Shown one piece after another: positions 19,126 to 23,994 of a stretch of 64,000 nt of DNA (the first letter of the stretch is position 1; each line of letters begins with the position of its first letter). The stretch comes from an uncultured Pelagibacteraceae bacterium (lineage in GTDB: Bacteria > Pseudomonadota > Alphaproteobacteria > Pelagibacterales > Pelagibacteraceae). The translations under genes were made by a program, and so were the position numbers. Location of the stretch: positions 62,001-126,000 of the forward strand of contig CACFXK010000001.1 of assembly GCA_902570125.1 (NCBI GenBank), read 5' to 3'. The notes beneath the pieces were generated by a model. That model was given only the letters and a program-made list of their open reading frames with translations. It was not told the DNA's origin and searched no databases.

Positions 19126-19689
19126 TTATCTAGGAGATCTTTTAGACAGTATTCTTTGAAGAGTTCTTCTATGCATCTTTAGTCTTCTTGCAGTTTCTGA
19201 TACATTTCTGTTACATAACTCAAAAACTCTATGTATGTGCTCCCATTTTACTCTATCCGCTGACATTGGGTTCTCAGGAGGGGCTGGTTTTTGATTTGGA
19301 TCAGCTAAAAGTGCTTTTTCAACATCATCTGCATCTGCTGGCTTAGCAATATAATCAATTGCTCCCTCTTTAATTGCAGCAACTGCAGTAGGAATGTTAC
19401 CATATCCAGTTAACATAATAATTCTACTTTTAATGTTCCCTTTTTGAATTTCTTTTACTACCTCTAGTCCATTACCATCATTTAATCTAAGATCCACAAC
19501 AGCAAATGCTGGACTTTTTGATTTTACGGTCTCAATACCAATTTTTACACTCTCAGCTTGTGTAACTGTAAAACCTTTTTTTTCCATAGCTCTAGCCAAT
19601 CTTTGTCTAAATGGATTGTCATCGTCTACTATCAAAAGCGATTTATCCTCGAAATCACTTAATTTTTGAAGTGGTGGCTGGTTAATCAT
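19126..19689 (-). CDS. regA: RegA/PrrA/ActR-family response regulator
   Basis: VVDLRLNDGNGLEVV; Fis-type HTH NVSETARRLKMHRRTLQRILSKRSPR. Confidence 0.9.
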   Translation of the reverse strand: MINQPPLQKLSDFEDKSLLIVDDDNPFRQRLARAMEKKGFTVTQAESVKIGIETVKSKSPAFAVVDLRLNDGNGLEVVKEIQKGNIKSRIIMLTGYGNIPTAVAAIKEGAIDYIAKPADADDVEKALLADPNQKPAPPENPMSADRVKWEHIHRVFELCNRNVSETARRLKMHRRTLQRILSKRSPR

Positions 19690-19773
19690 AGCCCTTATAT
19701 GGAAGTAAATTTTAATATTTCAATAGCATTATTTACTTTACATTATTAATTATTTCCCATAAATGCTGCATTT

Positions 19774-19812
19774 ATGAAACTTGCATACGTGATATGCAGG
19801 TTTTTTTTGTAA
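19774..19812 (+). CDS. Candidate 12-aa leader peptide MKLAYVICRFFL upstream of the ornithine decarboxylase gene
   Basis: ATG...TAA frame spanning the hairpin and T-tract of the leader; stop at 19810-19812. Confidence 0.35.
   Translation: MKLAYVICRFFL
19780..19808 (+). terminator. Terminator-like hairpin in the decarboxylase leader
   Basis: 8-bp stem CTTGCATA/TATGCAGG (one G-U), loop CGTGA, followed by TTTTTTTT. Confidence 0.55.
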
Positions 19813-19833
19813 ATTTTTTTTAGAGGTGCAGAT

Positions 19834-21012
19834 ATGCAAAAATTTAAGTCAGTTGAGGAATTAGTTAATCAACTGAGACCGACAGGACCTGTTTATTGTA
19901 TTAGAAAAGAGTCAATCAAATTGGCTTCTAAATACTTTCAAAAAAATTTCCCAGGAAAAATACTTTATGCGTTGAAAACCAACCCTCATCCAGTAGTTCT
20001 TAAAACTATTGTTGAAAGCGGGATTAATCATTTTGATGTAGCATCTATAAAAGAAATAGAGGCTATAAGGAAAATAAGTCCAAATGCAAATTGTTCTTAT
20101 ATGCATACAGTTAAAAGTAGAGAAAGCATTAAAGAGGCATATTTTAAATATAATGTTAAGGCCTTTTCTTTGGATACTAAAGATGAATTAATAAAAATTT
20201 TAGAAAGTACAAATTATGCTAAAGACCTAGAGTTATTTGTTAGAGTTTCAGTATCTAATGAACATGCAGAAATTGATTTATCAAAAAAATTTGGAGCAAT
20301 AAATAATGAAGCAGCTGGACTTCTCAGGTTAACAAAACAATATTCTAAAAAAATTGGACTTAGTTTTCATGTTGGATCACAATGTATGCACCCAATATCT
20401 TATTCAAAAGGAATATTTGAAATTAGTAATATAATTAAAAAAACAAAAATTATTCCAGATGTAATTAATGTTGGAGGAGGCTTTCCAACTATTTACCCTG
20501 ATCTTATTCCTCAATCTTTAGAAAAATATTTTGATGAAATTAAAAAAGGTTTAAATAATTTAAAATTAGATAAGCTTCCAGAAATTATATGCGAACCTGG
20601 AAGAGCGATTGTTGCAGAAAGTGGCTCAACAATTGTAAGAATTGATTTAAGAAAAAAACAGAAACTTTATATAAATGATGGAACGTATGGAACTTTGTTT
20701 GATGCTGGAGTTCCCAACATTGTTTACCCATCAAAAATGATAACTGATGGAAGAGTAATCTCCAAGAAATTAACATCTTTCGATTTCTATGGCCCAACTT
20801 GTGATAGCATGGATTATATGAAAGGTCCTTTTGTTTTACCAAACAATATAAAAGAAAATGATTATATAGAGTTAGGACAGCTTGGAGCATACGGATTAAC
20901 TTTTAGAACTAATTTTAATGGATTTTACTCTGATGAAATTTACGAAGTTGAAGATAGTCCAATCATGACGATGTATGACAAAGAAGCAAATAAAGAGTTT
21001 CTTGTTGCTTAA
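19834..21012 (+). CDS. Fold type III PLP-dependent ornithine (or lysine/ornithine) decarboxylase
   Basis: YALKTNPHPVV, EPGRAIVAESG, YGPTCDSMD active-site Cys, GQLGAYG. Confidence 0.9.
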   Translation: MQKFKSVEELVNQLRPTGPVYCIRKESIKLASKYFQKNFPGKILYALKTNPHPVVLKTIVESGINHFDVASIKEIEAIRKISPNANCSYMHTVKSRESIKEAYFKYNVKAFSLDTKDELIKILESTNYAKDLELFVRVSVSNEHAEIDLSKKFGAINNEAAGLLRLTKQYSKKIGLSFHVGSQCMHPISYSKGIFEISNIIKKTKIIPDVINVGGGFPTIYPDLIPQSLEKYFDEIKKGLNNLKLDKLPEIICEPGRAIVAESGSTIVRIDLRKKQKLYINDGTYGTLFDAGVPNIVYPSKMITDGRVISKKLTSFDFYGPTCDSMDYMKGPFVLPNNIKENDYIELGQLGAYGLTFRTNFNGFYSDEIYEVEDSPIMTMYDKEANKEFLVA

Positions 21013-22052
21013 TGTCAGACAATAAAAACCAAACAAGTAATAGAAAAAGTGATTTACTGAGTAAAGAAGTCGAGCATATTGATATAACTTCTTTCGATGC
21101 TAGAAAAATCGTTTCTTCAATGGAAAAAATGTCTTTCGTTTCAAGAGAGACTGCAAATGCTGCAAATATTTATAATGAAATGATAAAAGATAAAGATTGT
21201 ACAATTTTTTTAACACTTGCAGGATCAACGTCTGCTGCGGGATGTATGCATATTTACAGAGATTTAGTTAAATATAATATGGTAGATGCAATAGTAGCTA
21301 CTGGTGCTTCAATTATTGATATGGATTTCTTTGAGGCACTTGGTTTTAAGCATTATCAGGGATCACAGTATCAAGATGATACAGAGTTAAGAAATAACTA
21401 CGTTGATAGAATATATGATACTTACATTGATGAGGCAGAGCTTCAGATGTGCGATAAAACCATAGGGGAAATTGCAGATCAATTGGAGCCCAAAAGTTAT
21501 ACATCAAGAGAATTTATAAAAGAAATTGGTAAATATCTTAAAACTAATGCAAAAAAGAGAGACTCATTAATAGAAGTTGCCTATGACAATAATGTTCCAA
21601 TTTTCTGTCCTGCGTTTACTGATTCAAGTGCTGGATTTGGACTTGTGATGCACCAAGAAAGAAATCCAAAAAATCATATTACAATTGACTCAATACGAGA
21701 GTTTAGAGAATTAACTGAAATTAAAATAAAATCTAAGGGATCAGGGCTTTTTATGATTGGAGGAGGTGTACCAAAAAATTTTATTCAAGACACTGTCATA
21801 TGTGCTGAACTTTTAGGTAAAGATGTTGACATGCATAAATATGCTATCCAAATAACAGTTGCTGACTCTAGAGATGGAGCATGCAGTAGTTCAACATTAA
21901 AAGAGGCAAGCTCATGGGGCAAAGTAGATATTACTAAAGAGCAAATGGTTTTTGCAGAAGCAACAAGTGTATTACCCTTAATAGCAAGTGACGCCTATCA
22001 TAAAGGTGAATGGAAAAATAGAGAGAGAAAAAATTTTTCCAAGATATTTTGA
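21012..22052 (+). CDS. Deoxyhypusine synthase-like protein (putative homospermidine synthase)
   Basis: TLAGSTSAAGCMHIYRDLV, CPAFTDSSAGFGLV, EASSWGKV catalytic Lys region. Confidence 0.88.
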   Translation: MSDNKNQTSNRKSDLLSKEVEHIDITSFDARKIVSSMEKMSFVSRETANAANIYNEMIKDKDCTIFLTLAGSTSAAGCMHIYRDLVKYNMVDAIVATGASIIDMDFFEALGFKHYQGSQYQDDTELRNNYVDRIYDTYIDEAELQMCDKTIGEIADQLEPKSYTSREFIKEIGKYLKTNAKKRDSLIEVAYDNNVPIFCPAFTDSSAGFGLVMHQERNPKNHITIDSIREFRELTEIKIKSKGSGLFMIGGGVPKNFIQDTVICAELLGKDVDMHKYAIQITVADSRDGACSSSTLKEASSWGKVDITKEQMVFAEATSVLPLIASDAYHKGEWKNRERKNFSKIF

Positions 22053-22055
22053 TTA

Positions 22056-22937
22056 ATGATCAAAAAAATCAAAATCGGTTTAATACAAAGCAAATCTTTA
22101 GGTACAGTTCAGTCTAATATTGATCTAGCTATAAAAAATATTAAAAAAGCTGCAAAAAAAAAGGCAAAGATAATATGTCTTCCAGAGCTGTTTTTGTCTA
22201 ATTATTTTTGCCAAACAGAAAGTCATTCAAACTTTAAATTGGCAGAAAAAATTCCAGGAACAACCTCTAGAATATTTTGTGATTTAGCAAAGGAGCTTGG
22301 TGTTGTATTAAATATTACGATGTTTGAAAAAAAAACACCTGGGTTTTATCATAACACTAGTATCATTGTTAATGAAAATGGTAATATTTTGTCTAAATAT
22401 CGTAAGATGCACATACCTGATGACCCAGGCTATTATGAAAAATTTTATTTCAGTCCTGGAGACCTTGGATTTAAAAGTGTTAAGACAAAATTTGGAAAGA
22501 TAGGTCCTCTCATATGCTGGGATCAATGGTTCCCCGAAGCAGCTAGATTAACGGCTTTAAAAGGGGCTCAAATTATTTTTTATCCTACTGCTATTGGATG
22601 GCATCCAAAAGAAAAAAGAAAGTTTGGAAAATCTCAATTAGATTCTTGGATCACAATGCAAAAATCTCATGCTATTGCTAATGGAACTTATGTGGCTGCT
22701 ATAAATAGAGTTGGGATAGAAACAAAAGGTAAGAAAAAAATTGAATTTTGGGGTAATTCAATGGTGATAGATCCTAGTGGGAAAGTAATTGCAAAAGCAG
22801 GAAATAAAAAAGAGGATATTTTAGTTTGTGAAATAGATTATAAAAAAATAGATACTGCTAGGCAGCACTGGCCTTTTTTAAGAGACAGAAGAACTGAATT
22901 TTATAAAGACATTCTCAAAAATCCTGAAGATGAATAA
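22056..22937 (+). CDS. aguB: N-carbamoylputrescine amidase
   Basis: RKMHIPDDPGYYEKFYFSPGD..ICWDQWFPEAARL nitrilase-family signature. Confidence 0.92.
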   Translation: MIKKIKIGLIQSKSLGTVQSNIDLAIKNIKKAAKKKAKIICLPELFLSNYFCQTESHSNFKLAEKIPGTTSRIFCDLAKELGVVLNITMFEKKTPGFYHNTSIIVNENGNILSKYRKMHIPDDPGYYEKFYFSPGDLGFKSVKTKFGKIGPLICWDQWFPEAARLTALKGAQIIFYPTAIGWHPKEKRKFGKSQLDSWITMQKSHAIANGTYVAAINRVGIETKGKKKIEFWGNSMVIDPSGKVIAKAGNKKEDILVCEIDYKKIDTARQHWPFLRDRRTEFYKDILKNPEDE

Positions 22938-23994
22938 AAAAATAAATGAATTTAGAATGCCAGCAGAATGGGAGCCTCAAAAATCAGTTTGGATGGCTTG
23001 GCCTCATAATAAAAATGATTGGCCTGGATTATTTGAAAAAATTCCAAATGTAGTTGGAAAAATAATCAAATATTTAACAAAACATCAAAGAATAGATTTA
23101 TTAGTCAATAATACTAAAAGTATTGATACCACAAGAATATATTTAAAAAAAATAGGTTGTAACATATCTAACATTAAATTTCATAAACTAAAGACAGACA
23201 GGCTTTGGTTAAGAGATTCTGGACCAATATTTTTGGTCAACAAGCAAATTAGAAAAAAGACCATGCTTAATTTTAAATTTAATGCTTGGTCAAAATATAA
23301 AAATTTCAGAAATGATAATAAAATTAATAACTATATTAGTAGCTATTTAAATATTGAAAGTATTTTACCTAAGAAAATAAATTCAAATAAATTTCAAAGA
23401 GTAGTGATGGAGGGAGGTGCGTTTGATAATAATGGATATGGATCCATATTGTTAACAAGAGAATGCTTATTAAGCGTTAAACAAGAGCGAAATAAAGGCT
23501 TCAAAAAAATTGACTATGAAAATCTGTTTTCAAAATATTTAAATGCAAAAAATTTTATTTGGCTTAATAAAGGAATTGTTGGAGATGACACACACGGTCA
23601 TATCGACGATATTGCAAGATTTGTATCAAAAAGTACAATTATGATAGCTATAGAAAATAATAGATCAGATAAAAATTACAAAGCTCTTAAAGAAAATTTA
23701 AAAATATTAAGTAATTGTTATGATGAAAATGGAAAAAAATTTAAAATTATCAAGATTCCTATGCCAAGCCCAGTTATCATAGACAAAACTCGTGTCCCAG
23801 CAAGTTATTTAAATTTTTTCATAAGCAATAAAATAGTCTTGGTTCCAGTATTTAATGTAAAAGAAGACAAAAAGGTATTAAAAATTTTTAGAAAATTTTT
23901 TACAAACAGAAAAGTTATTACTATTGATTGTAGTGATTTAATTTGGGGTTTTGGAGCTATTCACTGCATGACTCAACAAGAGCCAAAAATTTGA
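22930..23994 (+). CDS. aguA: Agmatine deiminase
   Basis: MPAEWEPQKSVWMAWPHNKNDWPG; VVMEGGAFDNNGYGSILLTRECLL; HGHIDDIARF. Confidence 0.92.
   Translation: MNKKINEFRMPAEWEPQKSVWMAWPHNKNDWPGLFEKIPNVVGKIIKYLTKHQRIDLLVNNTKSIDTTRIYLKKIGCNISNIKFHKLKTDRLWLRDSGPIFLVNKQIRKKTMLNFKFNAWSKYKNFRNDNKINNYISSYLNIESILPKKINSNKFQRVVMEGGAFDNNGYGSILLTRECLLSVKQERNKGFKKIDYENLFSKYLNAKNFIWLNKGIVGDDTHGHIDDIARFVSKSTIMIAIENNRSDKNYKALKENLKILSNCYDENGKKFKIIKIPMPSPVIIDKTRVPASYLNFFISNKIVLVPVFNVKEDKKVLKIFRKFFTNRKVITIDCSDLIWGFGAIHCMTQQEPKI

Follow-up and report, generated by a model that had tools for sequence, protein, structure and literature searches.

The decarboxylase locus

The window, a 64,000-nucleotide stretch of a single contig, comes from a SAR11 host (Pelagibacteraceae), and the decarboxylase that it encodes shares 98% identity with proteins from single-cell genomes of uncultured Pelagibacteraceae. 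This decarboxylase is the first gene of a cluster with deoxyhypusine-synthase-like, N-carbamoylputrescine amidase-like and agmatine deiminase-like genes (Table 1). Its closest solved structures are lysine/ornithine decarboxylases; based on the protein sequence, the label “ornithine decarboxylase” is unproven, as the Asp that normally binds the substrate is not conserved. Residues encoded at 20670-20740 (plus strand), ..GTLFDAGVPNIVYP, align with the specificity-helix acidic residues ..GSFSGLMFDDARYP of a solved lysine/ornithine decarboxylase. Judging from its gene content, the cluster (19834-23994, plus strand) may produce homospermidine from agmatine, in which case the decarboxylase could be an arginine decarboxylase. 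The 1,9-bis(guanidino)-5-aza-nonane synthase couples agmatine, a reaction described as caldomycin synthesis (PMC10981699).

Upstream of the cluster, a gene for an ActR/PrrA/RegA-type redox response regulator (19126-19689, minus strand) is transcribed divergently and has a 144-nt intergenic region in common with the polyamine genes. Because this upstream gene is divergent, the hairpin in the decarboxylase leader is not the terminator of a same-strand gene directly upstream. A decarboxylase fragment with 78% identity, a partial match, is found on a 4.6 kb contig of a viral collection (IMGVR_UViG_3300006341_000161); it may be a pelagiphage gene or may belong to a misassigned cellular contig.

Table 1. 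Genes, promoter elements and leader features at the decarboxylase locus, with positions in the window.
Feature	Position	Strand	Basis or remark
-35 element TTTACA	19737..19742	+	CTTTAC in 133 of 139 distinct leaders; ATTTACA in the remaining six
-10-like element TAAATG, 17 nt after the -35 element	19760..19765	+	Conservation at fixed distance: T0.88 A0.93 A0.93 W T0.78 G0.79
12-codon frame proposed as uORF	19774..19812	+	Rejected as a conserved coding feature
Hairpin P1, AAACTTGCATA-cgtga-TATGCAGGTTT, 11 pairs, at the 5' end of the expected transcript	19777..19803	+	Covariation
U-tract 1 (T8), overlapping the base of P1	19801..19808	+	T7-10 in 138 of 139 leaders; six columns invariant
Spacer GTAAA between the tracts	19809..19813	+	(G/A)TTAAA in most of the genus
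Candidate helix P2, 5' strand UAAAUUUUU	19810..19818	+	Complementary to 19838-19846
U-tract 2 (T8), immediately 5' of the Shine-Dalgarno sequence	19814..19821	+	Conserved across leaders
Shine-Dalgarno sequence AGAGG, within the putative P2 loop	19822..19826	+	Sequence; conserved G-rich block at this place
Decarboxylase, fold-III PLP, ornithine/lysine decarboxylase-like	19834..21012	+	Pfam PF02784/PF00278; putative controlled gene
Candidate helix P2, 3' strand AAAAAUUUA, inside decarboxylase codons 2-5	19838..19846	+	Codon 3 AAA and codon 4 TTT in 138 of 138
Deoxyhypusine-synthase-like gene, 1,9-bis(guanidino)-5-aza-nonane synthase family	21012..22052	+	NF002699, 576.9 bits (cut-off 500)
N-carbamoylputrescine amidase-like gene	22056..22937	+	TIGR03381, 294.7 bits (below the cut-off of 410)
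Agmatine deiminase-like gene	22930..23994	+	NF010070/TIGR03380, below cut-off

Promoter and layout of the leader

We compared 139 distinct orthologous leaders from one SAR11 genus, together with an added set of 48 leaders from four sister genera and single examples from others. Within the genus, 138 of the 139 leaders have the same layout, in which a promoter is followed by hairpin P1, T7-10, (G/A)TTAAA or a near variant, T7-9, the Shine-Dalgarno (SD) sequence and the ATG. The exception to this search pattern, L041, carries ATTAGA in the tract, and pairing with the coding sequence (CDS) is still possible there through G.U. Leader L147 is a loose match to the pattern and is without the usual tract upstream of the SD.

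The promoter consensus across leaders is TTTACA-N17-TAAWTG, and in most of them the distance from the C of CTTTAC to the start of P1 is 40-42 nt. Based on this spacing, and with a -10 element that is not canonical, the transcript probably starts at 19771-19774, 2-5 nt before P1. With the expected start so close to P1, neither a sensor nor an upstream open reading frame (uORF) with its own SD would fit. The segment CTGCAT comes after the -10-like element and before the expected start; it is therefore probably not transcribed, or makes up the very first bases of the transcript. In the window, the -10-like element is overlapped by a perfect dyad of 8 bp, CATAAATG-CTG-CATTTATG (19758-19776, plus strand), of which mainly the TAAATG half is kept in relatives.

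A covarying hairpin at the expected 5' end

The original prediction described an 8-bp hairpin (CTTGCATA, 19780-19787; CGTGA, 19788-19792; TATGCAGG, 19793-19800) followed by T8 (19801-19808); these elements are all present, but the stem is longer, with 11 pairs. Within the single sequence, we found one terminator-like site compared with 0.1 expected in 300 bases; however, there was no excess of such sites over 20 kb (5 found, 6.5 expected), and the leader of the window folds only 1.2 standard deviations better than shuffled sequences. Since this single-sequence support is weak, it is conservation that establishes the hairpin.

P1 has two classes of arms with unrelated sequences, TTGCATA/TATGCAA and GTTTTT/AAAAAC, and within each class the arms remain complementary; 8 of the 11 pairs have double-sided changes. 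Across a 67-sequence alignment, 88.7% of the cells in P1 are paired, compared with 72.4% after shuffling and 29-64% after sliding; 125 cells are changed on both sides, compared with 51 in shuffles; and the covariation score is 0.467 compared with 0.200, a value that no shuffle reached. The non-Watson-Crick pairs in the 67 distinct P1 stems are 81 G.U and no A.C, and allowing G.U extends the stem in 42 of the 67, whereas allowing A.C extends it in two. On the gene tree, the changes in P1 comprise 78 that are double-sided, 44 that are one-sided yet still pair, and 18 that break a pair, compared with ~238 breaking changes for shuffled arms; these counts are biased upward, as the stems had been chosen for pairing. 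On this comparative evidence, P1 is a real RNA helix on the plus strand.

A covariance model of the element identified matches in 111 of 298 family genomes, one in each save for one extra weak match. All but one of these matches are in the same genus, and the element occurs only before the decarboxylase. We rejected a regulon, as the next-best matches of the model in a subset of genomes were ordinary terminators before an A/T-rich start, or chance. A 20-base pattern of the tract is rare at other sites; the two sites that were checked against open reading frames (ORFs) are antisense in coding genes, and the rest look like chance.

Complementarity between the leader and codons 2-5

The leader segment UUAAAUUUUU complements AAAAAUUUAA in codons 2-5 of the decarboxylase, and we refer to the helix that these strands could form as P2. 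On the leader side, (U)UAAAUUUUU is the most conserved part of the whole leader; its partner in the CDS is AAAAAUUUA(A). A complement of at least 9 bp is present in 136 of the 139 leaders by Watson-Crick pairs, and in 137 of the 139 when G.U is counted. For 55 ORFs of the window, the same measure gave mostly 4-5, with one at 9; this background includes the decarboxylase itself, presumably the one that reaches 9.

Codon 3 is the sole always-AAA column among 20 conserved lysine columns of the decarboxylase, and codon 4 is the sole always-TTT column among 14 conserved phenylalanine columns. The third base of codon 5 lies just outside the complement, and of the lysine columns this codon varies most (49.6% AAA). 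Such a synonymous pattern across codons 3-5 is what a leader-CDS helix would impose, although the comparison was made after the pattern had been seen and codon bias contributes to it. The two strands of P2 are both nearly invariant within the genus, and P2 itself is without covariation. Conservation of the amino acids (M-x-K-F) and codon bias may account for part of the constraint.

Predicted occupancy of P2 is ~0.55 at 10-25 °C in the genus and 0.25 at 20 °C in the window, and folds with P2 forced are 0.7-1.3 kcal/mol above the minimum. From conservation, we infer that P2 may form in the cell. A sharp RNA thermometer was rejected, as the predicted occupancy drops only from 0.56 at 10 °C to 0.45 at 37 °C. 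We also rejected a candidate compensatory change in P2 in g16 (L217), which was lost once its close relative L235, with an identical leader but a different CDS, was added.

Leaders of the sister genera

The promoter is recognisable in the sister genera, and the core of U-tract, UAAA and U-tract recurs. In g12 and g14, this core sits in the loop of P1 (AAGCUUUU..AGAAGCUU, AAGGUUUUUU..AAAAAACCUU) and no U-tract follows P1, which suggests that the shared role of P1 is not termination. The SD of these two genera is located in the loop of a second hairpin, UGUGU:ACACA; in g12 this hairpin hardly varies and is hence uninformative on covariation. The SD-loop hairpins of g13 (AUUAAU:AUUAAU, GUGUA:UACAC and UGUUU:AAACA) change in sequence and keep their pairing, and their own partners outscore swapped partners in 300 of 300 draws. 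Three g13 leaders are without the AAA. Covariation around the SD is confined to the sister genera, where the 3' arm differs from that of P2. Across the leaders compared, hairpins by which the SD is presented or hidden recur in several genera, whereas the terminator-like layout does not. In L227 (SAR11 genus g19), a far stronger leader hairpin (AGUUGUUUUUUUU/AAAAAAAACGACU, loop AGGGGAUUUUUUUCAUG) replaces P1.

Upstream frame and alternative pairings

In addition to the hairpin, the original prediction included a uORF from the ATG at 19774 to the TAA at 19812 (MKLAYVICRFFL) and two pairings that would compete with the hairpin, namely TTGCATA (19781-19787) with TATGCAA (19833-19839), which covers the start codon, and CTGCAT (19766-19771) with ATGCAG (19794-19799). 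All of these letters and coordinates are correct, and both pairs of segments are complementary. However, whereas 39 of the 40 leaders in the nearest clade (decarboxylase at least 91% identical) have the ATG of the uORF, only 16 of the 98 others do. Even within the near clade the frame is often broken: many copies stop after 4-5 codons, and a relative with 98% identity encodes just MKLA*. In total, 14 of the leaders that have the ATG encode only MKLAY* or MKLA*.

The longest run that pairs the 5' arm with the start region averages 6.78, compared with 6.75 for swapped partners; in the window, this pairing would disrupt the hairpin, at a cost of ~9 kcal/mol. For the upstream CTGCAT with the 3' arm, the corresponding values are 4.59 and 4.49, and this segment is probably untranscribed. 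Based on these comparisons, both alternative pairings are at chance level, with no co-evolution. A possible identity with the speF motif was not borne out either, as RF00518 gave no match at its gathering score in the window and none at E values up to 10 in 19600-19950. The alignment of orthologous leaders, which had been suggested as a check, upheld the hairpin arms, which covary, but not the uORF frame or the alternative pairings. What persists of the predicted leader control is a conserved structured leader with a hairpin and then a U-tract, for which a role in control is likely; the peptide and the three-way switch are not conserved.

Proposed action of the leader

We tentatively interpret the element as a conserved RNA in the 5' untranslated region of the polyamine operon, specific to the SAR11 lineage, whose action is on the mRNA and most likely on the initiation of translation; we give this reading a little less than an even chance. 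Transcription would begin a few nucleotides before P1, such that the mRNA opens with the hairpin, and P1 would protect the 5' end and keep the start region from misfolding. The segment of U-tract, UAAA and U-tract would pair with codons 2-5 to form the A-U helix P2, with the SD and the AUG in its loop, and ribosome loading would compete with this helix. Stabilisation of P2 (by cations including polyamines, by low temperature or by a protein on the U-tracts) would lead to less decarboxylase synthesis, and melting of P2 or occupancy by ribosomes would lead to more. Both the translational effect and the signal are putative. We give little credence to a narrower version, in which cationic polyamines stabilise the all-A-U helix and so block the ribosome-binding site on the mRNA for their own synthesis, with no aptamer, peptide or protein involved, within a leader of ~62 nt.

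An unlikely but serious alternative is a constitutive leader, in which P1 is a stabiliser of the 5' end of the mRNA, the U-tracts are a single-stranded landing site for the ribosome (S1 protein), and the outcome is steady, efficient expression. U-rich sequence immediately 5' of an SD is a translation enhancer, the position of P1 2-5 nt after the expected start is the classical place of a 5' stabiliser, and the predicted P2 is just marginally stable. However, such a leader predicts neither the AAA in the middle of the tracts, the 9-11 bp of CDS complementarity and the synonymous-site pattern, nor the covarying SD-loop hairpins of the sister genera. The CDS complementarity would also be left unexplained if the two U-tracts were a binding platform for a small RNA or a U-binding protein (Hfq or a cold-shock protein) that represses or activates the mRNA, which we consider improbable even though the core of tract, UAAA and tract is the most conserved part of the leader, recurs in several genera and at times sits inside the P1 loop.

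Transcription attenuation, in which P1 and U-tract 1 would be a promoter-proximal intrinsic terminator that yields an RNA of ~35 nt and whose read-through depends on a factor or on conditions during early elongation, seems quite unlikely to us. The site was found by a terminator scan, and its layout of A-run, stem and T7-10 is present in 138 of the 139 leaders of the genus; however, the stems are weak, with a median of -7.6 kcal/mol at 37 °C (weakest, -1.9) and in many cases one G-C pair, compared with -14.6 to -19.3 kcal/mol for four ordinary terminators from the same family or order (a fifth site in the window, terminator-like but shorter, is at -6.6 kcal/mol). The missing U-tract after P1 in g12 and g14, the alternative pairing that is not conserved, and the lack of room for a sensor between the start and the hairpin also argue against attenuation. 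In the speFL-like model of the original prediction, a uORF through a terminator and three exclusive pairings would respond to ornithine or polyamines. The letters for it are present in the window, but with an unconserved uORF whose frame is broken in near relatives, pairings at the level of swapped partners, and one arm that is probably upstream of the transcript start, we regard it as very improbable. Scarcely credible is an operator at the DNA level, with the inverted repeat as the site of a dimeric repressor a little downstream of the start: one leader class does have TTGCATA-N5-TATGCAA, a near-perfect dyad, but the arms of the other class are unrelated, and the presence of G.U without A.C mismatches, together with the replacement of arms between classes, is strong evidence against it.

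SAR11 are the most abundant bacteria of the ocean and its most abundant heterotroph, and to our knowledge few regulators are known in them. A covarying leader that occurs once per genome is a concrete candidate for how SAR11 sets polyamine synthesis, and the leader-CDS helix, if it works as proposed for translation initiation, would be a very small RNA control element. SAR11 cells have strong polyamine uptake and use several polyamines as nitrogen sources (PMC8437039).

Comparison with known leaders

The speF element (RF00518) is found in alphaproteobacteria upstream of COG0019 decarboxylases and begins near the putative transcription start (PMC1273637). The SAR11 leader is similar in being a leader RNA before the same decarboxylase superfamily, in alphaproteobacteria and near a putative start; however, the speF element has conserved blocks across hundreds of nucleotides and a different fold (PMC1273637). 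Its model has 153 positions, whereas the SAR11 leader has ~62 nt from the expected start to the ATG. No Rfam family, speF included, matched the leader, and a search of eight genomes with RF00518 gave no match, but nor did it give one in the control genomes.

The enterobacterial SpeF enzyme belongs to a different fold family. In E. coli and Salmonella, speF is under leader-peptide control (PMC6386406), and both this system and the SAR11 element are leaders of a decarboxylase of polyamine synthesis. The enterobacterial system depends on a leader peptide that is conserved and on alternative RNA structures, neither of which is conserved in the SAR11 leader.

Among structured RNAs of SAR11, the main text of Meyer et al. 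2009 describes motifs associated with rpsB, rpsL, ffh and methionine (PMC2704228); as presented there, these are likewise short cis-regulatory leaders that emerged from SAR11 sequence comparison. The main text of that survey mentions no decarboxylase, ornithine or polyamine leader, and the main texts of later structured-RNA surveys (PMC2864571, PMC6429828, PMC11109978) mention no ornithine or polyamine leaders. The leader RNA is real and SAR11-specific and, as far as the main texts of the papers that we searched extend, unreported.

The proposed helix P2 would resemble SD-sequestering leaders and RNA thermometers, in which an A-U helix near the start codon holds the SD and AUG in or beside its stem. 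It differs from them in that its 3' strand would be coding sequence, within codons 2-5, and in that its predicted temperature dependence is shallow.
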